Source of the DNA: a virus
DNA: 20,520 bases
IMG/VR virus record: IMGVR_UViG_3300027649_000283
Coordinates: 1 to 20,520 of that record
Direction: 5' to 3' (one strand)
Shown one piece after another: positions 2-20,476 of the stretch; positions within the stretch are counted from its first letter, which is position 1, and each line of letters opens with the position of its first letter. Position numbers and translations under genes: made by a program. The notes beneath the pieces were generated by a model. That model was not told the DNA's origin. It saw only the letters and a list, made by a program, of their open reading frames with translations, and searched no databases.

Positions 2-94
2 ATCGAACCATTTATTCTGATTGCCGATAAGGTAAATATGAAGATCGATCGTGGATATGGCGAGAATGCAACACTCGAGGATTTGTTTACATAA
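2..94 (+). CDS. C-terminal end of an unidentified protein (partial)
   Basis: A reading frame open from the left edge ends at a TAA whose last base is the first base of the next start codon (TAATG). The last 30 residues include ADKVNMKIDRGYGENATLED. I do not recognise the family. The stop/start overlap and dense packing suggest it is co-transcribed with the glutamine amidotransferase gene and may belong to the same modification cassette. A GAGGA motif at 77-81 inside this frame could be the ribosome binding site for the next gene. Confidence 0.6.
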   Translation: MEPFILIADKVNMKIDRGYGENATLEDLFT

Positions 95-774
95 TGTGTG
101 GTGTGATTGCAACTATTATAAGTTCTCCAACTGATCAAGAATTCGTTACACTAGAGAATGTATTTCTCCAGAGTAAGATACGAGGTCTTCATGCTACTGG
201 TGTTTCATATATCCAGAATGGTAAGATAGAGACTGTCAAAGAACCAATCGATGCCAAAGAGTTTCTTTCTAAGCATAATCTAAGAGATTTTATCAATGAA
301 GATGGAAATTTATATCTCATTGGACACACAAGGTACTCTACCTCTGATCTCAGATTCAATCAGCCATTCTCATCAGAAAGATTTTCGATTGTACATAATG
401 GAGTAATTTCTCAAGAGTCTTCCGATACTTGGGAAAATACATATAACCTACTTACAGAAACTGCAAATGATTCTGAGCTTATTCTTTCGGCATTGGAAGA
501 AGGAAAGGAGCCAGCAAAGTTCTTTACAAATGCGAGTTTCTCGATGTGTGTTCTCACCAATGAAAAATCCATCAGATGCATTCGTAATGAGTATAGGCCA
601 TTACATTATGCCACTATAGGAAGAGGCGTGATCTTTGCCTCTACTGAGGATATTTTGAGAAGAAGTGGCTTGACTTCTATTCAAAAATCAGGTAAACTTA
701 TAGAATATACTATAAGAAAAGATTCTCTTTCTAACGAAAAGATCATGGAGCGAAATATTGATGATCTACAATAG
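94..774 (+). CDS. Class II glutamine amidotransferase (Ntn hydrolase domain)
   Basis: The protein should hydrolyse glutamine and release ammonia for a partner ligase. It starts MCGVIA, so the nucleophile would be Cys2 after removal of Met1, as in PurF, GlmS and AsnB. The family motifs follow: HTRYST (residues 78-83), VHNG (100-103, with the oxyanion-hole Asn-Gly) and NDSE (125-128), equivalent to the glutamine-binding Asp region. At 226 residues it is a stand-alone glutaminase domain without a synthetase or isomerase half, so the acceptor enzyme must be separate. The next gene, an amidoligase overlapping by 14 nt, is the obvious partner. Pairing of stand-alone GAT-II proteins with amidoligases is described for phage and bacterial modification operons. 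The family call is secure; the acceptor substrate is not known. Confidence 0.9.
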   Translation: MCGVIATIISSPTDQEFVTLENVFLQSKIRGLHATGVSYIQNGKIETVKEPIDAKEFLSKHNLRDFINEDGNLYLIGHTRYSTSDLRFNQPFSSERFSIVHNGVISQESSDTWENTYNLLTETANDSELILSALEEGKEPAKFFTNASFSMCVLTNEKSIRCIRNEYRPLHYATIGRGVIFASTEDILRRSGLTSIQKSGKLIEYTIRKDSLSNEKIMERNIDDLQ

Positions 775-1636
775 CAAAGATTTTACCTGGGGATATGAGA
801 TTGAGTGGGGCGACATCGATCGTAGAATTGATATTCCCCAGCATCTTGGTTCTTGGGAATATGCCGAAACTGACATTGTCAACATTCATCCACCATTTCA
901 ATATAAGGCATGCGATCCTCTAGGTACTGATCCTTACATGGGTGGCGAAGTAAACACCAAGCCCACTAAGACTTGGATGCAGCAGGTCGAACGTATTCTT
1001 GAAATTAAAGCACTCTTCGAGGCAAATGGCAATACTCCTTCTGCCTCCTGCGTGAATCATGGACACCTTCATGTATTTGTTCCTGGTCTTAAAGATGACA
1101 TCGAATCTCTCAAGAAGCTAACTTCATACATTCGTGAAAATCAAGATACAGTCATTAAGAACTGCTATAACTTCTATGACACCAATGACATGAAGAACTA
1201 TAAGAACGCCAAGATGTATCTTAAGTTAGATGGCGGAAGGACAATGCCAGACTACATGTCTTCGAATATAATATCAGGAGCAACAGATTTCGAGCATTTC
1301 ATTAAGCTCCATGCAGCAGGTAAAGATGGTGTTTCTATGGGTAGACCATTTCGATATGGCATCAACACTTACTGCATGAAGCATACTGGTACGATCGAAT
1401 TTCGTTGCTTTAGATCTACGACTAAAAGAGAGGAGATTGAGTCTCAGTTTAGATTTGTAGAGATGTTCATGGAAGCTGCACTGAATGATGGACCATCGGC
1501 GAATGAGATCCTATCCGACAATTCATTCAAGTTTCCACCATTTATTTGGGATGCTTCTGAATATGATGGATGGATTAAGACCAAGTATGATAAATCTCGC
1601 GGAGAAAAGAAACGTGAGTTTCATGAAGTTGCTTAG
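761..1636 (+). CDS. Amidoligase of the glutamine-synthetase-like fold
   Basis: Members of this COOH-NH2 ligase group are predicted to join a carboxylate and an amine using ATP. Signatures seen are GYEIEWGD (residues 11-18, metal-binding acids), GGEVNTKPT (61-69), NHGHLHV (99-105) and, near the C-terminus, TIEFRCFRST. These match the pattern of the Amidoligase_2 type: an early GxEiE, a middle GGE, CGxHVH-like histidines and a late EFR. I chose ATG 761 over the TTG at 758 because GGAG at 747-750 is well spaced. The gene overlaps the amidotransferase by 14 nt and the next GNAT gene by 14 nt. The acceptor could be a peptide, a small molecule or a modified DNA base; the neighbourhood favours the last. 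The fold assignment is fairly sure, the substrate is inference. Confidence 0.78.
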   Translation: MIYNSKDFTWGYEIEWGDIDRRIDIPQHLGSWEYAETDIVNIHPPFQYKACDPLGTDPYMGGEVNTKPTKTWMQQVERILEIKALFEANGNTPSASCVNHGHLHVFVPGLKDDIESLKKLTSYIRENQDTVIKNCYNFYDTNDMKNYKNAKMYLKLDGGRTMPDYMSSNIISGATDFEHFIKLHAAGKDGVSMGRPFRYGINTYCMKHTGTIEFRCFRSTTKREEIESQFRFVEMFMEAALNDGPSANEILSDNSFKFPPFIWDASEYDGWIKTKYDKSRGEKKREFHEVA

Positions 1637-2129
1637 TACCACTCAAGAGCAATTCAGTAAATTCATCAGTGAAGATAGAGCTGACAAGTTTGCCAAGACC
1701 TTTGTATCTAAAGCAAATATGCAGAAACAATGGGAACATTGTATTGGATACTGGGAGGAAGAAGAACTCCTTGGTGCAATAATCACTACTGTCTCTAAAA
1801 GAAAACCCCATGTGGCTAATTTACAGTTACTTCATACCTTTGCCAAGCATAGAAGAAAGGGTGTTGCTCGGATTCTGACTCAGGATGCCCTAGAAAGAGC
1901 TATCTCTAATGACTCTGAATACTTTAGAGTCTCGGCAGAACCTGGCGCAGTTGACTTCTATAAGTCTATGGGATTTCGATTCTTTTGCAAACAAAAGAGT
2001 GGGTGCCAACTCAGTATGTTTAAGATAAATGGCCCTTCTTACACTTCTGGTCTCTATGATAGAGAAGATGTAATCATAGATAAGGCATTGAGTAAGAAGG
2101 GTAAGGGTGGTTGTTGGGAATATTTGTAA
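1623..2129 (+). CDS. GNAT-family N-acetyltransferase
   Basis: The protein of 168 residues should transfer an acyl group from acyl-CoA to an amine. The CoA pyrophosphate loop is visible as RRKGVA (residues 77-82, R-x-x-G-x-A), preceded by a beta strand LQLLHTF. AVDFYKSMGF further on is the usual motif B. ATG 1623 is preferred to upstream in-frame codons because it gives the compact operon overlap, and everything before it lies inside the amidoligase frame without domain character. GNAT proteins occur with GAT-II and amidoligase in the modification operons described by comparative genomics. Here it may cap an amine made by the cassette. An alternative is acetylation of a host protein. Its stop is followed by a promoter, so it ends the first transcriptional block. 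Confidence 0.8.
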   Translation: MKLLSTTQEQFSKFISEDRADKFAKTFVSKANMQKQWEHCIGYWEEEELLGAIITTVSKRKPHVANLQLLHTFAKHRRKGVARILTQDALERAISNDSEYFRVSAEPGAVDFYKSMGFRFFCKQKSGCQLSMFKINGPSYTSGLYDREDVIIDKALSKKGKGGCWEYL

Positions 2130-2145
2130 TTATTTTAAAAACCGC

Positions 2146-2174
2146 TTGTCTTTATGGCTTAATGATATTATACT
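2146..2174 (+). promoter_or_regulatory. Sigma-70-type promoter before the amino acid:DNA transferase-like gene
   Basis: TTGTCT (2146-2151) and TATACT (2169-2174) are separated by exactly 17 nt. The 13 bases at 2137-2149 (AAAAACCGCTTGT) recur upstream of the promoter at 9781-9809, which also has a 17-nt spacer and TATACT. The predicted transcription start falls at about 2181-2183, which is the start codon region of the next gene, so any transcript from here would be nearly leaderless. Confidence 0.6.
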
Positions 2175-2183
2175 TTAAAAGTG

Positions 2184-3152
2184 ATGAGTAGAAAAGAAAA
2201 CTTCATAGATTGGTTTGCGTGGTCGCTGGAACTCAAGGACTGTGATCCGGCAATTCACCTGACCAACTATTTGTTTGATAGGTTCGAACATAATCTCGAG
2301 CAAAAGATTTGGATTGCTTGGATCTATGGGACCACCTATCATCTTCCAACAACTTGGGTTATTTGGAATGAGTTCCCCGACATGGAACTCGTTGGTACAA
2401 AGAGACTCGAGGATTGGAACAACGAAAATTATAAGAGATTAAGATACCAGACCGACACTAAGTGGAACAAAGGACATCTTCCTTCTCAGTTTATTTCATA
2501 TAAGAACTGGGTCGGGGATCGATCACAACGTGAAGCATTTTCTGGATTCCTTAAAGGGAGTCGTACAGAAAACTTTGACATGGTATGGAATGAGGTAAAA
2601 TCTAAATTCCATAAATTTGGTCGATACTCGACCTGGTTCTACCTTCAGACTCTAAGAGATTGTTGCAAGTTTCCAATCGATGCTTCTTCTCTAATGCTCG
2701 AGGATTACTCTGGCTCTCGTTCACATCGTAATGGCCTATGCTATGCGCTCGACAAACAAGATTGGATAGACGAGAAGCTAGATAAGAATCAGTTAGACTT
2801 TCTTAACAAAGGTGCTACTGACATTATTACAGAAGCCAAGGAACGTCACCCACACTTAGACTTTGAATACTTTGGAATGGAAACCTGTCTATGCAGTTTC
2901 AAGAAACTCTTTAGAAAAACAAATGGAAGATATCTAAGTTATTATCTCGATCGTCAGGCTGAAGAGATTACAAAGGTACAGAGTGATGGCTGGCACGGAA
3001 TAGACTGGAAGCCACTCTGGGATTTCAGAACAGAAACTTTAAATAAAAAGACCTTGACTAATAGGATAGATAAGAGTAAAATGAGTATATTCCTTTCCTC
3101 GGGCATCATTGATTACATGGAGATTTTTAGTGAAGAATTACGTTCTACCTAA
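2184..3152 (+). CDS. Putative amino acid:DNA transferase (aGPT-Pplase-like)
   Basis: A protein of 322 residues with motifs that I recall from the alpha-glutamyl/putrescinyl thymine pyrophosphorylase families, one clade of which was shown to act as an amino acid:DNA transferase replacing the (pyro)phosphate on 5-hydroxymethyluracil. Visible landmarks are YGTTYHLPTTWVIWNEFPD, RLRYQTDTKW, FHKFGRYSTWFYLQTL, the basic/serine stretch SGSRSHRNGLCYAL, and a late CSFKKLFR with YYLDRQ. The assignment comes from memory of the family pattern and from context (kinase and TET/JBP enzyme nearby), not from a search. ATG 2184 follows an in-frame GTG (2181). No Shine-Dalgarno sequence is present, and the promoter -10 ends only 9 nt upstream. 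It overlaps the dioxygenase gene by 23 nt. If the family call is wrong, it remains a conserved-looking alpha-helical protein of unknown role. Confidence 0.55.
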   Translation: MSRKENFIDWFAWSLELKDCDPAIHLTNYLFDRFEHNLEQKIWIAWIYGTTYHLPTTWVIWNEFPDMELVGTKRLEDWNNENYKRLRYQTDTKWNKGHLPSQFISYKNWVGDRSQREAFSGFLKGSRTENFDMVWNEVKSKFHKFGRYSTWFYLQTLRDCCKFPIDASSLMLEDYSGSRSHRNGLCYALDKQDWIDEKLDKNQLDFLNKGATDIITEAKERHPHLDFEYFGMETCLCSFKKLFRKTNGRYLSYYLDRQAEEITKVQSDGWHGIDWKPLWDFRTETLNKKTLTNRIDKSKMSIFLSSGIIDYMEIFSEELRST

Positions 3153-4428
3153 GATAGATTCAGAAGAAGTTGTCGGTACATTTGTCGATAAGTCTCACTA
3201 TGATACTTTGGTCGACTCTGACTGTGATGGATATAGGAAAGATGTAATCAATACACTAGATGAATCTAATCTGCTCTTCCGGTTCAGAAAGAATATCTTT
3301 TCTCTCGAGGAGCAGAAACTTGCATATCGAGGTCTTTCTCCTGCAGCAACACCATCTCAGAATAGAGGAATGGCCGCTGGTCCAAAGGGAGAGAAACTAG
3401 GGAACAGAGATTGGGTAACTGAGTTTCAAATTGAAATCCTCGAGACTCTTGCTCGGGAAGAGTCAGGAAGTCTATTCGACGAAGATCCAATCAAAGAGAT
3501 CATCAAGAAGTATAGTTTGGGGAATACTGAATCTACACGTGGCCTTGTCTGGCTTCGATCAGAGATTCAGAAAGACTATGGAAGTTATGATGGGTTCTTT
3601 GATAAGTGGTTCTCTGCCATCAAGAAGGCACCAAAGGAAGAGCAAAGAAGCCAGGCAAGAAAGATCATTGATAAGTATATCTCTGATACGAACTATGCCA
3701 ATGCCGTAAATTCTGGCATTGCTGGTTACTTTGGAAGGTATCCACGTATCCCCTATAAGAGAGCAACGGCATATACTGAGAAAAATAAAGATCTCTTTGA
3801 GATGAGCTTCCCGTTTCTAAAGACGCTTGATTCTAAATTCAAAGAGCTAGTTCCAGAAAGATATTCTAATCAAAAGAAAATGGCAGATAAGCTAGACCCC
3901 AGGTTTAGAGTTTCTGATACGGTGTTTACGACTATTACTGTTAATAAAAACTTCAGAACTGCGGCACATAGGGATGCTGGCGATTTAACGACTGGGTTCT
4001 CGAATCTATCAGTTCTAACTGATGGAACCAAGGACTACCAGGGAGCACATCTTGTACTTCCAGAATATCGTGTTGCAATTGACCTTCGCCCTGGCGATCT
4101 ACTACTAATCAACAATCATGAAGCGATTCATGGTAATACTGAACTGATCGGCGACAAGGACATGGAAAGAATTTCTATCGTCTGTTACTTTAGAGAGGAC
4201 ATGCTAGTTGCTGGATCTTGGGAGTATGAAGCACTTCGAAGAAATTATGTCGACGAGAGGAGACTTAATCAGAAGCACAAGCTCTGGACTAAACTCTGGA
4301 ATGGAATTTCTCCAGGTATGTGGGCAGAATCAGAGTGGAGTCAATACCTGACTGAACATGGTCTTACTGATGAGAATGGCGATCTATCTAAATCTAAACA
4401 AGCAACACTTGAGGAGTTATTCGCGTGA
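3130..4428 (+). CDS. TET/JBP-family Fe(II)/2-oxoglutarate DNA dioxygenase
   Basis: The enzyme should oxidise the 5-methyl group of thymine or 5-methylcytosine in DNA. The catalytic double-stranded beta helix lies in residues ~260-355: HRD (His280, Asp282) and IHGN (His334) are the iron ligands, and Arg347 in ERISIV would bind 2-oxoglutarate. TAAHRDAGDLTTGF and RPGDLLLINNHEAIHGN match the TET/JBP pattern far better than generic prolyl hydroxylases or AlkB. A region of about 200 residues precedes the core and contains SQNRGMAAGP (77-86), the segment usual in phage TET/JBP proteins. GTG 3130 is chosen because GGAG (3119-3122) lies 7 nt upstream; the TTG at 3109 has no such site. The gene overlaps its neighbours on both sides (23 and 4 nt). 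Whether it acts on T or 5mC cannot be read from sequence; no cytosine methyltransferase is in the window. Confidence 0.85.
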   Translation: MKNYVLPKIDSEEVVGTFVDKSHYDTLVDSDCDGYRKDVINTLDESNLLFRFRKNIFSLEEQKLAYRGLSPAATPSQNRGMAAGPKGEKLGNRDWVTEFQIEILETLAREESGSLFDEDPIKEIIKKYSLGNTESTRGLVWLRSEIQKDYGSYDGFFDKWFSAIKKAPKEEQRSQARKIIDKYISDTNYANAVNSGIAGYFGRYPRIPYKRATAYTEKNKDLFEMSFPFLKTLDSKFKELVPERYSNQKKMADKLDPRFRVSDTVFTTITVNKNFRTAAHRDAGDLTTGFSNLSVLTDGTKDYQGAHLVLPEYRVAIDLRPGDLLLINNHEAIHGNTELIGDKDMERISIVCYFREDMLVAGSWEYEALRRNYVDERRLNQKHKLWTKLWNGISPGMWAESEWSQYLTEHGLTDENGDLSKSKQATLEELFA

Positions 4429-4877
4429 CAACTAGAAACCAAAGACACCATAACGGCCATAACGGAAAACGAGGACATCATAACGAAGATGGACGATATT
4501 TAAGTACAGATTTAGATGGAAACTCAGTTGTAAAACTTATATGGCTTACGCATATCGCAAAAAATGGAAAGAGTTTCTACAAGGGATATTTTCCTTATAG
4601 TTGGAGCTATGTTGAATCAGGCTTGCAAGGAAAGAGTGATCGGGACTTGCACGCTCTCGCAGGATATTATCATAGGGATTATACCACAGCAGCTTGGAAT
4701 ATGTGTTGTAAAAACTATAAAGAACATGGCATCTGGGGATCTGATGCTGATGTAGAGAGGGCAAACGAAGCCGCAATTTTGCCAGGATATACCAAAGGCG
4801 TTGACGATGTTCATAAACGTAAATATAATAAAAAACTGGAGTTTGATGGTAATACCCTATGTGCGTTATTTAAATGA
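4425..4877 (+). CDS. Unknown protein with His/Asn-rich N-terminus, in the modification cassette
   Basis: A 150-residue protein that I do not recognise. It starts at GTG overlapping the previous TGA (GTGA), with a strong GAGGAG at 4411-4416 spaced 8 nt, so translation is well supported. Residues 1-32 are rich in His, Asn, Gly and Arg (RHHNGHNGKRGHHNEDGR) and look disordered. The body has many aromatic residues (LIWLTHIAKNGKSFYKGYFP, SWSYVE, YYHRDYTTAAWNMCC) and two adjacent cysteines. There is no signal peptide or membrane segment. It sits between the TET/JBP oxygenase and the P-loop kinase with 4-nt overlaps on each side, so a role in the same pathway is likely: an accessory DNA-binding subunit, a further modifying enzyme or a metal-binding factor. 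No function is claimed. Confidence 0.7.
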   Translation: MTTRNQRHHNGHNGKRGHHNEDGRYLSTDLDGNSVVKLIWLTHIAKNGKSFYKGYFPYSWSYVESGLQGKSDRDLHALAGYYHRDYTTAAWNMCCKNYKEHGIWGSDADVERANEAAILPGYTKGVDDVHKRKYNKKLEFDGNTLCALFK

Positions 4878-5452
4878 AAGTCATAGCCATCGGTGGCAAT
4901 CCAGGCTCGGGTAAGTCCACTCTAATGAAGAAAATCCTTGAGCTGATCGGTGCCTCTAAGGATTCAAAGCAGCTCTATGAGTTGGTTCCTGGACATACGG
5001 CTGGTCCATTGATCACTGCCTATCATCCAAACATAATCGTACTCGGTAAGTATGATGAAGACGTTGGAGTCTTTGGTGGAACAGATAAGATGTCAATGGC
5101 AGTGATGCCCAAGGCAATGGAGTTTCTCAAGACCAAGCCAGCCGATGTAATTATCTTCGAGGGAGATCGTTTATTTGCCGCATCCTTCTTAGAGTTCTGT
5201 ACTGAGATTTCTGATCTATCGATCATTCATCTTGAAACTACCAAGGATATTAGAGAACAGAGATATAGAGACCGTGGTTCGAATCAGAACAAAACTTGGC
5301 TCGAAGGTCGCGAAACTAAGATCTCAAATATCATGACAAATATGATGTTGATGGATTATGTAACAAGCCTTCCTAACAATACCATCGAGGAACAAGCTGA
5401 GATCATATCTTTGGTACAAACCAAAATTAAGGATAAACATTATGCCAACTGA
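4874..5452 (+). CDS. P-loop kinase, likely 5-hydroxymethylpyrimidine DNA kinase
   Basis: A compact 192-residue kinase. Walker A is GGNPGSGKST (residues 7-16) directly after the first strand. A Walker-B-like strand reads DVIIFEGDRLF, and an arginine-rich lid region follows (REQRYRDRG, then TWLEGRETK). The EGDR motif and WLxGRxTK segment resemble phage 5-hmdU DNA kinases, which phosphorylate the hydroxymethyl group on DNA so that it can be displaced. Beside a TET/JBP dioxygenase this role is attractive. General alternatives are a nucleotide or polynucleotide 5'-hydroxyl kinase. The start ATG overlaps the previous stop by 4 nt (ATGA) and no clear Shine-Dalgarno is present, so translational coupling is likely. 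The kinase fold is sure; the DNA substrate is inferred. Confidence 0.75.
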   Translation: MKVIAIGGNPGSGKSTLMKKILELIGASKDSKQLYELVPGHTAGPLITAYHPNIIVLGKYDEDVGVFGGTDKMSMAVMPKAMEFLKTKPADVIIFEGDRLFAASFLEFCTEISDLSIIHLETTKDIREQRYRDRGSNQNKTWLEGRETKISNIMTNMMLMDYVTSLPNNTIEEQAEIISLVQTKIKDKHYAN

Positions 5453-6101
5453 AATTAGCATAGCAAATATAGCATTATATGATATTCAGAAATCATCTAT
5501 TCGTAAATGGAAAGAATCTTCTTCTGAAAAATTAAGACAAGATTATCCCATCCTAGAAAAAAATAATTCAGTATTCATCGACCTTGGAGTATTTGATGGA
5601 AATTGGTCAAAGCAGATCCTCGATAAATATCCGAATTCTCATGGGATTGGATTTGAGCCCATAGCCTCACAATTCAATATTGCAAAAAATATTCTCACTA
5701 CTCCTAGATATTCTCTACTAAATTTTGCTGCGGGTGAAAAGGCAGAAAATGTTATTATTTCTTTAGAAGCACAAGGATCTTCTTCGCATAAAAAAACAGA
5801 ACATAGTGAGTTATGTAATAAGATTAAATTTACAGATTTTATCAGAGAAACTGATTTAATCGATAATTCTGTAAATATCGATCTTCTCAAGATCAATATC
5901 GAGGGTGATGAATTTTCTCTACTCCTTGATCTGATAGACTCTGGAATGATCACTAAGTTTACAAATATACAAGTGCAGTTTCATCCCTTTATCGAAGGAG
6001 CCGAGGAGATGTATCGCGGGATCAAGAATGAGCTGGATAAAACTCATAGAACCACATATAGCTATCCCTGGATTTGGGAAAATTGGGAACTAGCCTCCTA
6101 A
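5442..6101 (+). CDS. FkbM-type SAM-dependent methyltransferase
   Basis: A 219-residue Rossmann-fold methyltransferase. Motif I is VFIDLGVFDGNWS (residues 44-56), an acidic residue for the ribose is in GFEP (70-73), and the FkbM hallmark strand is DLLKINIEGDE (147-157). FkbM enzymes usually O-methylate sugars or other small groups. The gene overlaps the kinase gene by 11 nt and has AAGGA at 5429-5433, 8 nt before ATG. It closes the modification cassette, since a promoter region follows. It could methylate the finished base modification, or a sugar or other product unrelated to DNA. Base composition is locally more AT-rich than the kinase gene, which may reflect separate acquisition. Confidence 0.75.
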   Translation: MPTEISIANIALYDIQKSSIRKWKESSSEKLRQDYPILEKNNSVFIDLGVFDGNWSKQILDKYPNSHGIGFEPIASQFNIAKNILTTPRYSLLNFAAGEKAENVIISLEAQGSSSHKKTEHSELCNKIKFTDFIRETDLIDNSVNIDLLKINIEGDEFSLLLDLIDSGMITKFTNIQVQFHPFIEGAEEMYRGIKNELDKTHRTTYSYPWIWENWELAS

Positions 6102-13388: not shown

Positions 13389-13799
13389 ATGAAGAAAATA
13401 TACTCCAAAGTAGAGCCAGATAAGCTCCTTCACATCGTCTATCGACTCGACGAAATGAAGTCTGGTAGAGAAGATCTGATCTCTCCCAACAATTTCCTTC
13501 AGCTATCTGCTCTGAAGATGCCCGAGGGAAAGACATTCAAACCTCATCATCACATCTGGAAAGCTTCTCCAATTTCTTGCATTGCTCAAGAGTCTTGGGT
13601 AGTTATTTCAGGAAAGGTCAAGGTCACATATTATGATCTTGATTTATCGATTGTCGACGAAGACATCTTATTGCCTGGCGATGTATCGATAACTCTTGAG
13701 GGAGGACACAATTACCTCTTCCTCGAAGATTCAGTTGTATACGAATATAAAACTGGTCCATATACTGGAATTGAAAACGATAAGGTGCAATTTGGCTGA
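13389..13799 (+). CDS. Cupin-fold protein of the sugar/acyl cluster
   Basis: A 136-residue single cupin domain. The metal-binding first motif is seen as FKPHHHIWK (His53-55) followed by Glu68 in AQESWVVISGKVKV, and the second as PGDVSITLEGGHNY (His107). It ends EYKTGPYTGIENDK. Such cupins occur in nucleotide-sugar clusters as epimerases, ketoisomerases or binding proteins, and also as regulators. GGGA (13378-13381) is 7 nt before ATG. It opens an eight-gene run and overlaps the next gene. Whether it is an FdtA-like isomerase or a structural cupin cannot be decided; the fold is fairly clear. Confidence 0.75.
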   Translation: MKKIYSKVEPDKLLHIVYRLDEMKSGREDLISPNNFLQLSALKMPEGKTFKPHHHIWKASPISCIAQESWVVISGKVKVTYYDLDLSIVDEDILLPGDVSITLEGGHNYLFLEDSVVYEYKTGPYTGIENDKVQFG

Positions 13800-14496
13800 T
13801 TATAATATTCGGGGTGGCCTCGGAACTCAAATTTTTTCCTTTCTTACCTGCTATGCAATTGCAATTGAGAATAAGGAAACAGTAGATACTGTGTTTTTCA
13901 ATGGCGGTAATTATATCCAAGACAAAAGTATCATTAAGGATATGGATAGAATTTTTATCTATGACATTCTGGAATTTTGCAATTCGGTCAATATACCTAA
14001 GATTATTCTTGTGAGTGGGAATAACAAAACACTGCCTTTCAAGAATCCCAATGCAGCACTTCTCAGAAAACATTGGTTTGAAATAATGAAAAATATTAAA
14101 CTTAAACGTCTCACAGAACAAACAGAAGAAGTTATTGCTCATATTCGCGGAACAGATCGCGCCCTTGTTAATCCAGAAAGATTTCTTAATCCATCAAGAT
14201 TTGATTTTATTGGAATGTGTCAAAGCGCCATATCAGAAGATATTGATATCTGTAAAAGATTAATGATCGATCCCAATACAGACACATTAGAGGATTGGTA
14301 TAGAGTTCTAAATGCCAAGGCTGTACTCGGAGGATATTCGACATTTACACTACTTGCAGGTGCACTCAATCCTAATTTAAAATTGACTATTATTTCTAAA
14401 GAAAAATCTGATAATTCTAAATTGATTCCCGATGAAGAGTGGAAAAATTTAGAACTATTTGTCGAGATGTTTCCTAATATTAGTTTCTATAGATAG
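13792..14496 (+). CDS. GT11-like (fucosyltransferase-type) glycosyltransferase
   Basis: A 234-residue protein with RGGLGTQIFSFLTCYAIA at its N-terminus, close to the GGLGNQ(L/M)F motif of alpha-1,2-fucosyltransferases. AHIRGTDRA matches the HxRxxD donor-binding motif, and LGGYSTFTLLAGAL resembles the C-terminal S/TxFS motif. GT11 enzymes use GDP-fucose, and a GDP-mannose 4,6-dehydratase gene lies downstream, which fits a GDP-6-deoxysugar donor. The start is unusual: TTG 13792 with AAGGTG (13782-13787), overlapping the cupin gene by 8 nt. The farther in-frame ATG (13696) would add 32 residues without domain character inside the cupin gene. Confidence 0.7.
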   Translation: MADYNIRGGLGTQIFSFLTCYAIAIENKETVDTVFFNGGNYIQDKSIIKDMDRIFIYDILEFCNSVNIPKIILVSGNNKTLPFKNPNAALLRKHWFEIMKNIKLKRLTEQTEEVIAHIRGTDRALVNPERFLNPSRFDFIGMCQSAISEDIDICKRLMIDPNTDTLEDWYRVLNAKAVLGGYSTFTLLAGALNPNLKLTIISKEKSDNSKLIPDEEWKNLELFVEMFPNISFYR

Positions 14497-14507
14497 TGAG
14501 ATCTGTT

Positions 14508-15407
14508 ATGGGGATTAGATTCTTAGGCGTTGGTAAGTACCTTCCGCCAACAATTGTAAGAAATGAAGACATATCATCAAGCCCTGACTGGGTTCGAAAG
14601 AATCTTGGTATGAATGAACGTCATATCGAGTATGTCTTAGAAACAAGCGATATGGCTGTTTGTGCAGCACAAAATGCCTTGGCTTCTGCCAAACTAGAAG
14701 CAAAGGATATCGATGTTATTATCCTCGCTACATCAACTCCAGATATGATGATTCCCTCAACTGCATCTATTGTTCAAGGAAAGTTAGGAGCCAAGAATGC
14801 TTTTGCCTTCGATGTTTCTGCCGTTTGCTCTGGGTTTGTATATGCTCTCTACTTGGCCAAGAATATTCTCGAGAATGATTCTTGTAAGAAAATACTAGTT
14901 ATTGCATCAGAGAAATATTCTATGATAACAGATTGGAATGATAGAAATTGTGTTTATTTTGCCGATGGAGCTGGAGCAGTAATTGTTGAAAATAATTCAG
15001 CAAGATTTGTAAGCCACCTCTATACAAATGGTGAATTTTCCAATTACTTTACTACTAAGAGTGCAAATGATAAGTTCAAAATGCAGGGGAGAAAGATCCA
15101 TGAGTATGCAGTTGATGCAGTATCAAGATCTATAGAATCATATTTTAGAGAAGATATCGATAACATCAAGTGGGTAATTCCCCATCAACCAAATATTCAT
15201 ATTCTAAGAGAGATATCTAAAAAGACAAATATCCCATTCACAAAGTTTGTTGTTACTCTTGATAAATTCGGAAACACTGCTGGTGCTACGATCCCCATGG
15301 CCCTTGATGTGATCAAGGATCAAATTAATGATGGTGATTTGATTTTGATGGCAGCAGTTGGTGCAGGAATGACTGGCGGAACTATTTTAATAGAATGGAA
15401 GTCATGA
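14508..15407 (+). CDS. 3-oxoacyl-ACP synthase III (KAS III, FabH-like)
   Basis: A 299-residue thiolase-fold enzyme that condenses an acyl-CoA with a malonyl-ACP or similar. The full catalytic triad is present: Cys107 in FDVSAVCSGF, His227 in VIPHQPNIHIL and Asn257 in KFGNTAGATIPMAL. NERHIEY near residue 37 and YFADGAGAVIVE are family landmarks. Length is slightly under E. coli FabH (317). I prefer ATG 14508; GTG 14496, overlapping the previous stop, would add 4 residues. A phage is unlikely to need a second FabH for bulk lipid. With the dehydrogenase and acyltransferase next to it, synthesis of a short acyl group for a sugar is more likely. Enzyme class is sure, product is inference. Confidence 0.9.
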   Translation: MGIRFLGVGKYLPPTIVRNEDISSSPDWVRKNLGMNERHIEYVLETSDMAVCAAQNALASAKLEAKDIDVIILATSTPDMMIPSTASIVQGKLGAKNAFAFDVSAVCSGFVYALYLAKNILENDSCKKILVIASEKYSMITDWNDRNCVYFADGAGAVIVENNSARFVSHLYTNGEFSNYFTTKSANDKFKMQGRKIHEYAVDAVSRSIESYFREDIDNIKWVIPHQPNIHILREISKKTNIPFTKFVVTLDKFGNTAGATIPMALDVIKDQINDGDLILMAAVGAGMTGGTILIEWKS

Positions 15408-16030
15408 AATATTTAATTTTCGGTCCTCGGTCTGGGTTGGCCAAGGAAGTGATAATTCATATGACAACGAATCATTGTTCAGTCAATACTTCTGATATTG
15501 ATATTACCAATTCCTGTGAAGTTGATGAGGCAGTTTATCGAATTGAACCAGATGTTGTTATAAATTTTGCAGCTAGAAATATAGATAGTGCTGCCCACAA
15601 GGTCAGTGATGATAATGTAAAGAGACAAATAGACACCAATATTATTGGAAATATTAATGTCACATCTTCAGCTCTGAGGCATATGCGTTCTGGGGGAGGA
15701 ACTATCATTCTTCTTTCTTCTGTATTGGCAATGAAGCCAGAATTCGGAACGAGCATTTATGCTGGATGTAAGGGATTTATTGAATCTTATATTAAGACAG
15801 TTGCCCATGAAAATATGGGAAAGGTGAATGTCGTAGGAATAGAGCTTGGATATTTTGATGGTGGGTTGACTCATAGAATTTCATCAGATATAAAAGAAAG
15901 AATAATTTCTTCTATTCCAGCCAAAAGACTCGGGACTATTTCCGAACTTTATAACACGATTGAATATATTATCAGGACACCGTATATTTCTGGTACGACT
16001 ATAAAGATCAATGGGGGATTATATGCCTAA
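15404..16030 (+). CDS. Short-chain dehydrogenase/reductase
   Basis: A 208-residue Rossmann oxidoreductase. The dinucleotide loop is FGPRSGLAKE (residues 6-15), a variant of GxxxGxG. NFAAR (55-59) replaces NNAG. The active site is SS (105-106) and YAGCK (Tyr119, Lys123). It overlaps the KAS III gene by 4 nt (ATGA); ATG 15395 would add three residues. A ketoreductase acting on a 3-oxoacyl product of KAS III would give a 3-hydroxyacyl chain, e.g. 3-hydroxybutyryl, for N-acylation of a sugar. It could instead act on a sugar. The family is clear. Confidence 0.85.
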   Translation: MKYLIFGPRSGLAKEVIIHMTTNHCSVNTSDIDITNSCEVDEAVYRIEPDVVINFAARNIDSAAHKVSDDNVKRQIDTNIIGNINVTSSALRHMRSGGGTIILLSSVLAMKPEFGTSIYAGCKGFIESYIKTVAHENMGKVNVVGIELGYFDGGLTHRISSDIKERIISSIPAKRLGTISELYNTIEYIIRTPYISGTTIKINGGLYA

Positions 16031-16541
16031 TCCAGAATTGTTTATGGATAAAGATGTATCGATAAAACATTTCACTGATTGTGTGTTTGGTAAATATGTT
16101 GCTATTGATAAGGGGTTTTATTCAACAGTCATTATGGATATTGGGGATTGGGTTCACCTGGCTCCATATACATCTGTTATAGGAGGAAGGGAAGGGATCT
16201 TTAAGATGGGTCACTTTTCAGGTCTTTCGGCTGGAGCAAGAGTGATTTGTTCTGGGGATGATTTTACTTCTGGGGCACTCATGAATCCTCAGGTTCCTAT
16301 TAAATATAGAGAGCCCATTGATGCTCCTGTTATATTTGAAATGTTCACATGCCTTGGAACAAATTCTGTAGTGATGCCGGGAGTTACATTGGCTGTTGGT
16401 TCTGTTGTTGGTGCATCTTCTGTTCTAACCAAAAATACAGAACCATGGACCATATATGTGGGATGCCCAGCCAAGCCAGTTAAAGTTCGCCCTAAATATA
16501 AAGCGATTGAGTATGCGAGGGAATTGGGATATGAATGTTGA
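16023..16541 (+). CDS. Left-handed beta-helix (hexapeptide) acyltransferase
   Basis: A 172-residue protein with degenerate hexapeptide repeats across the middle (VIMDIGDWVHLAPYTSVIGG, then MGHFSGLSAGARVICSGDDF) and a C-terminal set VMPGVTLAVGSVVGASSVLTKN. It ends YVGCPAKPVKVRPK, typical of sugar O- or N-acyltransferases of the WbbJ/PglD kind. GGGGGA (16013-16018) precedes ATG 16023, which overlaps the dehydrogenase stop by 8 nt. It probably transfers the acyl group to the 4-amino sugar made downstream. Acetyl-CoA as donor is the simple alternative. Confidence 0.82.
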   Translation: MPNPELFMDKDVSIKHFTDCVFGKYVAIDKGFYSTVIMDIGDWVHLAPYTSVIGGREGIFKMGHFSGLSAGARVICSGDDFTSGALMNPQVPIKYREPIDAPVIFEMFTCLGTNSVVMPGVTLAVGSVVGASSVLTKNTEPWTIYVGCPAKPVKVRPKYKAIEYARELGYEC

Positions 16542-17301
16542 AAAGTATATAGAAGATGGTTATATTATAGTTGAAACTGATTTGATTGATAGCGATATTG
16601 ATCTTATCAATTCTGAGGTTGATCGGTGTCTTACTATAGAGGACAAAAAGACTCAAAGTAATTATCAATATACAGAATTTCCTCGTTTGTTCGAGGCATG
16701 GAAACAAAGTAAACCAATCTATAATCTTTGTAAGAATAAGAATATTATCGATGCCATCGAACTTCTTTATGGAGAAAAGTGCTTTCCATTCTCGACAATA
16801 AATTTCACAGGACCATCTAATCAGCCTCTCCATTCTGATACCATTCACTTTAATACAATTCCTCAAAATCGTATGTGTGGTGTTTGGGTTGCTCTCGAAG
16901 ATACAAACGCAGACAATGGTACTCTTTCAATTGTTCCAGGAAGTCATCTTTGGAGTACACATGACTATCAGAGTATTGGGCTTCCCCATCCAGATACAAT
17001 TGTAGATGGAGAGAAAGAAAATTATAGAAAATATGAAGAGTTCATCATTAGTCTTGTCAAAGAGAATAATGCTCAGGCTGTTCCTATTTGTTTAAAAAAA
17101 GGCCAGGCATTAATTTGGGAAGCTAACTTGCTTCATGGTGGAACTTTTACTGAATTCAAGAAGTCAAGAAAAGTACAAGCAATTCATTACTTTCTCGAGA
17201 ATTCCGAAACATACTATCATCCGATGTTTTCGAATCTTGAAAAAGAGGATTATGCCTACAAGTGGTGTAATGATGGAAAAAGAATGGAGGACTATATATG
17301 A
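16531..17301 (+). CDS. PhyH-type Fe(II)/2-oxoglutarate dioxygenase
   Basis: A 256-residue dioxygenase of the phytanoyl-CoA hydroxylase group. The iron ligands are His101 and Asp103 in PLHSDTIHFNT and His202 in ANLLHGGTF; Arg213 in KKSRKVQAIHYF would bind 2-oxoglutarate. GVWVALEDTNADNGTLSIVPGSH is the family core. It differs from the TET/JBP enzyme elsewhere in the window and should act on a small molecule such as an acyl chain or sugar. It overlaps the acyltransferase gene by 11 nt. Hydroxylation of the acyl group before or after transfer is a reasonable guess. The start at 16531 is chosen over 16456 because upstream sequence lies inside the preceding gene. Confidence 0.85.
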   Translation: MNVEKYIEDGYIIVETDLIDSDIDLINSEVDRCLTIEDKKTQSNYQYTEFPRLFEAWKQSKPIYNLCKNKNIIDAIELLYGEKCFPFSTINFTGPSNQPLHSDTIHFNTIPQNRMCGVWVALEDTNADNGTLSIVPGSHLWSTHDYQSIGLPHPDTIVDGEKENYRKYEEFIISLVKENNAQAVPICLKKGQALIWEANLLHGGTFTEFKKSRKVQAIHYFLENSETYYHPMFSNLEKEDYAYKWCNDGKRMEDYI

Positions 17302-17358
17302 ACATCATATTTAAACCTTCAGTTGCGATAAACCACAAATGGTATATGGAGTTAGATA

Positions 17359-18087
17359 ATGAATCCTGAAAATAAAATTGTATATAATTCTTGGCCAGTT
17401 GGGAAATTGCCCAAGGAGTTTCAACGTCCAGAACTAGATCAGATTAAAGCACTTGGATATGACTGGAAAGATCCGCGTGACGTCGTGAAGATGTTCGAGG
17501 AAAAGGTCGCCAAGTTCTCTGGATCAAAATATGCAGTTGCCATAGATTGCTGTTCTCATGGATTGTTTCTGGCAATAAAGGCATTGGAAAGAAAAATAAA
17601 ACCAATCCATAAAGAAAAGATCATCATTCCAAGTAGAACCTATGTCTCTGTTCCCATGCAGATTGTCCATGCTGGATTTGAAGTTGGATTTGAAGATAGA
17701 AAATGGTCTGGTATATATCAACTATATCCCTATGACATCTGGGACGGTGCTGTTCGATGGACCAAAGGTATGTACATCGGAGGGCTTCATGTGGTTTCTT
17801 TTCAAATTAAGAAAAGAGTTCCAATTGGTAGGGGTGGAATGATTCTGACTGATTCAAAAGAAGATTATGATTATCTATGCCGTGCACGTTATGATGGAAG
17901 AAATCTCGATGTAGAATACATGACAGATAACTATGAATATGGAATGGGTTGGCACTATTACATGACACCTGAGGATGCTGCTCGTGGTATTATTCTGATG
18001 GATCAAATTCCCGAAGAAAATGAGGATACGGGAGGAAGTAATAATTATTCTGATATATCTCAAGTGAGGAGTTTCTTACATGGCTAA
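17359..18087 (+). CDS. Short DegT/DnrJ-type sugar aminotransferase
   Basis: A 242-residue PLP enzyme. AVAIDCCSHGLFLAIKAL is the phosphate-binding segment, DIWDGAV carries the Asp (129) that contacts the pyridine nitrogen, and VVSFQIKKRVPIGRGGMILT supplies the Schiff-base lysine (Lys152). The usual family length is 360-400, so the C-terminal small domain is missing. The frame ends cleanly and overlaps the next gene by 8 nt, so this is not obviously a broken gene; short forms also occur in cyanophages. GGAG (17348-17351) is 7 nt before ATG. With the GDP-mannose dehydratase it could make GDP-perosamine or a related amino sugar. Function as a full aminotransferase is uncertain because of the missing domain. 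Confidence 0.8.
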   Translation: MNPENKIVYNSWPVGKLPKEFQRPELDQIKALGYDWKDPRDVVKMFEEKVAKFSGSKYAVAIDCCSHGLFLAIKALERKIKPIHKEKIIIPSRTYVSVPMQIVHAGFEVGFEDRKWSGIYQLYPYDIWDGAVRWTKGMYIGGLHVVSFQIKKRVPIGRGGMILTDSKEDYDYLCRARYDGRNLDVEYMTDNYEYGMGWHYYMTPEDAARGIILMDQIPEENEDTGGSNNYSDISQVRSFLHG

Positions 18088-19054
18088 AAAAGCACTAATC
18101 TCTGGAGTCTCTGGACAAGATGGCTCATACCTAACAGAGCTCCTGCTCGAGAAGGGATATGATGTTCATGGTATCGTTCGAAGGCATTCTGTAGCTGAGG
18201 ATCAGTCTACTCGACTGTTGCACACTAATAGTTCGATCTCGACATATTATGGTGACATGCTCGACGAACATTCGATATATAGAATTGTTCAAGAAGTCAA
18301 ACCCGATGTAGTCTATAACCTCGCAGCTATGTCGCATGTTCGAATTTCATTCGACATTCCTGCATTTACAATCAAGACTAACTCTCTTGGTGTTCTGAAT
18401 ATTCTCGAAGCTGTTCGAACTATTGTTCCCGAAGCTAAATTCTACCAGGCATCTTCCTCTGAAATGTTTGGGAACTCTGTTGATTCTGATGGGTTTCAGA
18501 GATTGACAACTCCAATGAACCCAGTTTCGCCCTATGGTTGTTCTAAGGTTATGGGGTATAATCTAGTAAGGCACTATCGAAATGCTGCATATAAGATGCA
18601 TGCATGTAACGGAATTCTATTCAATCATGAGTCGCCTCGACGTGGTACAAACTTCGTCACTAATAAGGTTGTCAAAACTGCCGTTCAGATCAAGAAGGGT
18701 CTGAAGAAAAATCTCGAACTCGGTAACATGGACTCTTCTCGTGATTGGGGTCATGCATATGACTATGTCCGCGCAATGTACAAGATCGTAAATCATGACA
18801 CTCCTTCTGATTGGATTGTATCGATGGGAGAAAGTCATACTGTTCGTGAAATGTGTGAGTTCGTATTCTCTGAACTCGGTATGAACTATCAAGATTATGT
18901 CATTCAAAATCCAAAGTACATGAGAGCAGAAGAACTGAAGTATCTCTGTGGGGATTCTCTTCGCACTCGGAAAGAACTTTCTTGGACACCGACATATACA
19001 TTCAAGAGCATGCTACAGCAAATGATAGAACACTGGGATCGGAATCTAAACTAA
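18080..19054 (+). CDS. gmd: GDP-mannose 4,6-dehydratase
   Basis: A 324-residue extended SDR converting GDP-mannose to GDP-4-keto-6-deoxymannose. The NADP loop is GVSGQDG (9-15) and VRRHS follows. The active site has SSSE (125-128) and SPYGCSK (Tyr152, Lys156), then FNHESPRRGTNFVTNKV and SRDWGHAYDYV typical of Gmd. The catalytic Thr of the E. coli enzyme (STSE) is Ser here, a conservative swap. GAGGAG upstream of ATG 18080 is well placed. The product would feed the aminotransferase (perosamine route) or a fucose route, although no GDP-fucose synthase is seen here. Confidence 0.92.
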   Translation: MAKKALISGVSGQDGSYLTELLLEKGYDVHGIVRRHSVAEDQSTRLLHTNSSISTYYGDMLDEHSIYRIVQEVKPDVVYNLAAMSHVRISFDIPAFTIKTNSLGVLNILEAVRTIVPEAKFYQASSSEMFGNSVDSDGFQRLTTPMNPVSPYGCSKVMGYNLVRHYRNAAYKMHACNGILFNHESPRRGTNFVTNKVVKTAVQIKKGLKKNLELGNMDSSRDWGHAYDYVRAMYKIVNHDTPSDWIVSMGESHTVREMCEFVFSELGMNYQDYVIQNPKYMRAEELKYLCGDSLRTRKELSWTPTYTFKSMLQQMIEHWDRNLN

Positions 19055-20014: not shown

Positions 20015-20476
20015 CTATTGTAGCTCTATCGCTAGAGCCAAAGATCTCGGAAAGTTAAGATCGAGCTGACGAGAAGTATCGTGTTCTGGAACCATTCTGA
20101 TGATGTTTTGATCCAGAGTTGTTAGATTATTTTCACGATCAATAAACTTATACTCTACCTTGACTGGACCGAATGGCGAGATGTGATCGACAATGTCAGA
20201 AACATTAAACTCTCCACAACTATAGACATCGAGTTGTAGTAGATTGGGATCGACCTCGTCCCATGTATGCAATGCAATGTGCGAAGTCTCGATAATTCCC
20301 ACACAAGTCAATCCACGATTTCCCTTTACATTACAATACTGAGCAAATGGCCCCATCATAATCTTCATTCCAACCTTGTCAACCAATTCAGAAAACCAAG
20401 TTTTTATAAGATGTTCATTCTTTGGTGCATTTAGGACTTCGGCTCTTACAATTAAATGCTTATGGACAAGTAACAT
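20015..20476 (-). CDS. speD: S-adenosylmethionine decarboxylase-like pyruvoyl enzyme (SpeD family)
   Basis: A 153-residue homologue of the self-cleaving AdoMet decarboxylases. ETSHIALHTWDE corresponds to SESHxxIHTWPE in bacterial SpeD: the Ser that becomes the pyruvoyl group is kept, as are the following His residues and the Cys of LDVYSCGEF. The residue before the serine is Thr rather than Glu, which I recall as common in phage versions. KGNRGLTCVG, the start MLLVHKH, and YKFIDRENN also match the phage family. It would supply decarboxylated AdoMet for spermidine; some phage and bacterial SpeD homologues have changed to decarboxylate amino acids. It is the only minus-strand gene here and converges on the preceding gene with a 6-nt gap. 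AGGAG at 20488-20492 (minus strand) lies 11 nt before ATG. Confidence 0.85.
   Translation of the reverse strand: MLLVHKHLIVRAEVLNAPKNEHLIKTWFSELVDKVGMKIMMGPFAQYCNVKGNRGLTCVGIIETSHIALHTWDEVDPNLLQLDVYSCGEFNVSDIVDHISPFGPVKVEYKFIDRENNLTTLDQNIIRMVPEHDTSRQLDLNFPRSLALAIELQ

Follow-up and report, generated by a model that had tools for sequence, protein, structure and literature searches.

Phages decorate their DNA bases and thereby conceal the DNA from bacterial defences. Here we analyze a block of eight genes, including a TET/JBP dioxygenase, an amino acid:DNA transferase (ADDT) and a P-loop kinase, in the virus record IMGVR_UViG_3300027649_000283 (20,520 bases, hereafter the window). Hypermodified thymidines derived from 5hmdU are known from phages ViI, M6 and W-14, and the tailoring enzymes of M6 include a GNAT acetyltransferase. 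The pathways of these three phages resemble the one predicted for the window in that an ADDT-family transferase follows a phosphorylated hydroxymethyl intermediate and tailoring enzymes act afterwards (Lee et al. 2018). They rely on a thymidylate synthase (TS)-family hydroxymethylase and a kinase with an HMUDK_hel domain, whereas the TET-bearing relatives of the window have a TET and a PF18751 kinase instead. The CmoX/CmoY carboxymethylcytosine–glycine system (PMC12783734) shares ATP-dependent amide formation on a phage DNA base; there CmoY, which is homologous to asparagine synthetase, acts on carboxymethylcytosine, whereas the window encodes a glutamine-synthetase-like ligase and a separate glutaminase. 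In the phage cytosine hypermodification reported by Burke et al. 2021, TET likewise provides the handle in the form of a hydroxymethyl pyrimidine in DNA; the window TET clade differs in having no accompanying C5-methyltransferase in the records searched and in its amino acid branch, which occurs in place of sugars or together with them. In kinetoplastid base J synthesis a TET/JBP enzyme (JBP1/2) likewise hydroxylates thymine in DNA before derivatization. The derivatization by JGT is a glucosylation, in contrast to the phosphorylation and amino acid transfer predicted here, and a sister branch with a TET-associated glycosyltransferase (TAGT) is closer to base J. Iyer et al. reportedly predicted in 2013 that TET-made hydroxymethyl pyrimidines serve as starting points of phage hypermodification. 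TET-started hypermodification is as an idea not new in itself, and Pfam already names the TAGT and ADDT families. We found no description of a thymine-directed amino acid branch that starts with TET and uses an alternative kinase, of glutaminase–amidoligase tailoring (including in thymidine hypermodification of the ViI/M6/W-14 type) or of quantified module exchange, and an earlier account of the exact set or of the enzyme replacement described below could exist.

Gene content and predicted folds indicate that a post-replicative thymine hypermodification pathway is probably the best explanation of the window block. The initial annotation had described eight overlapping genes at 94-6101, and all eight open reading frames are indeed present on one strand, overlapping or nearly so, with successive spacings of -14, -14, +54, -23, -4, -4 and -11 bases. 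With the start sites of the amidoligase, GNAT and TET genes corrected to 761, 1623 and 3130 (GTG), respectively, the genes are as follows.

94..774, + strand: class-II glutamine amidotransferase (GAT2), glutaminase domain only, predicted ammonia donor (Pfam GATase_6, 6e-11)
761..1636, + strand: glutamine-synthetase-like amidoligase, predicted carboxylate amidation or ligation on the modified base (fold, invariant residues)
1623..2129, + strand: GNAT acetyltransferase, predicted to acylate the appended amine at nitrogen (Pfam Acetyltransf_10, 2e-14; conserved cassette position)
2184..3152, + strand: ADDT-family amino acid:DNA transferase, predicted to swap phosphate for an amino acid (Pfam ADDT, 2.2e-23; fold, shared residues)
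3130..4428, + strand: TET/JBP 2-oxoglutarate/Fe(II) dioxygenase, predicted maker of 5-hydroxymethyluracil in DNA (Pfam Tet_JBP, 1.4e-25)
4425..4877, + strand: 150-aa protein outside the conserved cassette (matches neither Pfam nor PHROG)
4874..5452, + strand: P-loop kinase, PF18751, predicted hydroxymethyl phosphorylation in DNA (Pfam, 4.5e-13; co-occurrence with ADDT)
5442..6101, + strand: FkbM-like methyltransferase, accessory, possible late methylation (weak Pfam match, 0.003)

Profiles built from the window proteins were run on about 110 fetched loci (L numbers below); the contigs are partly redundant, many relatives are fragments, and IMG/VR contigs may be incomplete. The TET, glutaminase, amidoligase, GNAT, ADDT and kinase genes occur together in 20 loci, the window included, always on a single strand and within 4.7-7.3 kb. 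TET comes first in 19 of these, with the glutaminase, amidoligase and GNAT placed between TET and ADDT (19/20); in the window alone, TET lies after ADDT and before the kinase. A search with the amidoligase only recovered the same cassette wherever the contig was long enough. Because the set recurs in 20 loci, the six-gene arrangement is far beyond chance. Its carriers form a group of T4-like environmental phages. The proposal of an eight-gene pathway thus stands for these six recurring core genes and not for the other two. The FkbM and 150-aa proteins were rejected as core members since they are not conserved: among the compared loci the 150-aa gene was seen in the window only, and in L051 and L072 the FkbM gene sits between TET and ADDT. 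The FkbM assignment itself is below the Pfam cut-off in the window (Methyltransf_21, 0.003, 18.0 bits against 22.7), and the homologous L051 protein reaches 37.5 bits (3.5e-9).

The strongest association within the cassette is that of ADDT with the kinase. Downstream sequence of 2.5 kb or more was available for 66 TET loci; 33 of them carry both genes, one carries ADDT alone (at a contig end) and one the kinase alone (Fisher 2e-16). The pairing persists after TETs are clustered at 80% identity (23, 1, 1, 8; p=5.6e-6). TAGT takes the place of ADDT and kinase in 18 of the 66 loci, and the remainder have neither. GAT2 is restricted to ADDT-bearing TET groups (15/15). TETs sharing up to 89% identity carry TAGT in one phage and ADDT with the kinase in another, where the six-gene set may or may not be present. 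The TET product accordingly resembles a hub for exchangeable downstream modules; module swapping is the pattern expected if every module uses that product. Mutual exclusivity of TAGT and ADDT holds as a per-contig statement only and was rejected as a rule, since it fails at 80% TET grouping, where close TETs carry different modules. Caulobacter phage Cr30 combines ADDT with a TAGT-like gene.

Further variants were seen among the TET loci. In Cr30 (L002:14206-15402) and seven others, a myo-inositol-1-phosphate synthase gene separates ADDT from the kinase, a hint that the base modification of these eight loci may contain inositol. In phage C48C1 (L004:8857-12316), TET is followed by an uncharacterized 344-aa protein and UDP-galactopyranose mutase, which suggests a galactofuranosyl modification.

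The initial annotation's assignments of the TET/JBP, ADDT, GNAT and GAT2 families all pass the Pfam cut-offs, as does the PF18751 match of the kinase. The window TET scores 89.8 bits against the Tet_JBP profile (cut-off 34.9), and the Fe(II)-binding H-x-D...H triad and both arginines, including the one that binds 2-oxoglutarate, are invariant in 94 of 94 TET proteins. Its closest solved relatives are TET2 chains in the PDB (E 6e-5). The GenBank entries for Cr30, DLP6 and S-CBWM1 label the TET protein 'SNF2 DNA repair protein', which is probably a propagated error.

The window ADDT scores 83.6 bits against PF18724 (cut-off 26.2), and it shares residues E233, C237, K240, N82, Y52 and G146 with the ViI, M6 and W-14 enzymes. 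Its predicted model (predicted local distance difference test score, pLDDT, 93) superimposes on the 5-phosphomethyl-2'-deoxyuridine (5-PmdU) glycinyltransferase of phage PaMx11 (8z2m) with Z 18.1 over 251 residues at 3.4 A; the next-best fold matches are queuine-salvage enzymes (Z 9.9) and DNA glycosylases. Profile, shared residues and fold all place the 2184-3152 protein inside the amino acid:DNA transferase family. The ADDT profile gave no match to PDB sequences, and the fold search alone found this relative; we found no publication on the solved 5-PmdU glycinyltransferase structure. L073 contains a tandem pair of ADDT genes (2690-4872), which may each serve a distinct amino acid or base.

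The kinase (192 aa) belongs to PF18751 (Ploopntkinase3), and its Walker A motif, EGDR motif and lid arginines are invariant in 28 family relatives. It had been taken for a kinase of the 5-hmdU DNA kinase kind. It is a P-loop kinase and near-inseparable from ADDT, but identity with the characterized 5-HMUDK was rejected, as it lacks HMUDK_hel and belongs to a different P-loop family. The profile searches that the initial annotation had named as a possible refutation, for the 2184-3152 and 4874-5452 proteins, thus leave the candidate pathway standing. HMUDK_hel was found in none of 17 TET records and in all three controls (ViI, M6, W-14); conversely, PF18751 is carried by 11 of the 17 and is absent from the controls, the Cr30 copy being detected by BLAST and the window-derived profile only. 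A match to the PADLOC model mad8 (1e-4) was taken as P-loop similarity. Because of its strict pairing with ADDT, the kinase is predicted to phosphorylate the hydroxymethyl group.

Among the tailoring genes, the glutaminase matches PDB amidophosphoribosyltransferase (E 1e-5), and its catalytic Cys2 and the HNG and ND (oxyanion) motifs are invariant in 25 relatives. A lone glutaminase domain needs a synthetase partner, for which the overlapping amidoligase would be the obvious candidate. The window amidoligase stays under the cut-off for Pfam Amidoligase_2 (0.0043, 17.4 bits against 22; the best family member reaches 9.5e-8). Its AlphaFold model (pLDDT 90) has glutamine synthetase, YbdK and GCL as top Foldseek matches (Z 10.7), and the ExE, HxH, R and EFR residues are invariant in a family of 20. 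The modeled fold confirms its identity as glutamine-synthetase-like, as originally proposed. At the GNAT-ADDT junction, two unrelated inserts of 435-517 aa without Pfam match occur, one in L040, L044 and L060 (c9) and the other in L048, L084 and L108 (c10). By eye they resemble GIY-YIG-like and HNH-like endonucleases, and they were rejected as pathway members on these grounds.

A 5-methylcytosine-acting phage TET would be expected to come with a phage C5-methyltransferase, and a pre-made hydroxymethyl group with a hydroxymethylase. A search of 55 TET records, nine with lengths of 125-177 kb, found no C5-cytosine methyltransferase (PF00145). The search for TS-family dUMP hydroxymethylases (PF00303), which picks up the divergent enzymes of ViI, M6 and W-14 (3/3 controls), gave no match in 15 of 16 TET records; the only match, in Cr30, is strong and of ordinary ThyA strength. 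ThyX is present in six large TET records, which implies that dTMP is made normally there. These absences in large TET-bearing relatives support the post-replicative start that had been suggested for the pathway. TET and PF18751 thus appear to replace the hydroxymethylase and HMUDK ahead of a shared ADDT step, which makes thymine in DNA the likeliest TET substrate. DNA of the related Stenotrophomonas phage DLP6 is reported to be resistant to restriction enzymes (PMC8228603). DLP6 encodes TET and TAGT and has neither a C5-methyltransferase nor a TS-family hydroxymethylase; its resistance is independent support for this TET clade marking phage DNA.

DLP6 (L003), L054, L017, L049 and others have TET beside TAGT, with no C5-methyltransferase or TS-family hydroxymethylase in the records searched. 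Such loci might be the phage equivalent of base J; no report of glucosylated 5hmdU in phages existed as of 2019 (PMC6449724).

The window phage is T4-like. Clamp-loader subunits and RegA are encoded downstream of the eight-gene block, and a near-identical contig, L103, extends the window upstream into a gene whose product looks by eye like a T4-type DNA polymerase. The region 13389-19054 contains genes for ketoacyl-acyl carrier protein synthase III, a short-chain dehydrogenase/reductase, a PhyH dioxygenase, a short DegT aminotransferase and GDP-mannose dehydratase; this island probably serves sugar or acyl decoration. The product of 20015-20476 on the - strand resembles S-adenosylmethionine decarboxylase by eye.

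Three other explanations have to be weighed. The TET could act on 5-methylcytosine and yield a hypermodified cytosine, as in characterized phage TET systems, which act in C5-cytosine hypermodification (Burke et al. 2021); TET2, its closest solved relative, is moreover a mammalian 5-methylcytosine oxidase. We consider this unlikely, given the missing C5-methyltransferases, even in records of 125-177 kb, and the use of 5-phosphomethyl-dU by ADDT relatives. It is quite improbable that the glutaminase, amidoligase and GNAT form a separate metabolite or cell-surface pathway merely adjoining DNA-modification genes. Simpler TET-ADDT-kinase loci do exist without these three genes, and the window also has its sugar/acyl island at 13.4-19.05 kb, but ADDT is present in every TET group with GAT2, and the genes overlap in a fixed order between TET and ADDT. 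Very unlikely, finally, is a pre-replicative route in which an unrecognized enzyme makes 5-hydroxymethyl-dUMP and TET oxidizes later or takes no part in the first step: divergent hydroxymethylases could escape the search and the window phage is incomplete, but the search finds the enzymes of ViI, M6 and W-14 and, among the TET relatives, nothing except the ThyA-like Cr30 match, and several relatives carry ThyX instead.

Four points weigh against post-replicative thymine hypermodification. The window is a 20.5-kb fragment, and the absence of hydroxymethylase and C5-methyltransferase holds for relatives, many of which are also fragments. The kinase substrate assignment rests on gene context. DLP6 represents the glycosyltransferase branch rather than the ADDT one. 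In L047, L052, L086, L021 and L085, the glutaminase and a diverged GNAT occur without the amidoligase, and such TET loci are unexplained by an amidation step.

In the pathway we propose, TET would hydroxylate the thymine methyl group in phage DNA to give 5-hydroxymethyluracil, the PF18751 kinase would phosphorylate the hydroxymethyl group in DNA, and ADDT would displace the phosphate with an amino acid, a reaction known from related enzymes. The glutaminase and amidoligase may then form an amide, the least certain step; in the simplest version the amino acid carboxylate would become a carboxamide, with ammonia from glutamine. GNAT would acylate the amine, and in the window phage FkbM might, more speculatively and as an accessory, add a methyl group. 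The purpose would be protection against restriction and other DNA-targeting defences. The complete picture, in which a thymine-directed TET provides the post-replicative entry, the pathway has its own DNA kinase class, glutaminase and amidoligase make an amide on an undescribed nucleobase, and the swap of one module diverts the product between sugar and amino acid, is in our judgement an even call.

If the proposed pathway is correct, it would be a second route to phage decorated bases, in which, as with base J, the thymine hydroxymethyl handle arises on DNA that is already complete and the nucleotide pool need not be rebuilt. It would also bring a new class of kinase and a new pair of tailoring enzymes, together with a modular hub open to tests in isolated phages, and its enzymes could potentially be used to install functional groups in DNA with ordinary thymine.

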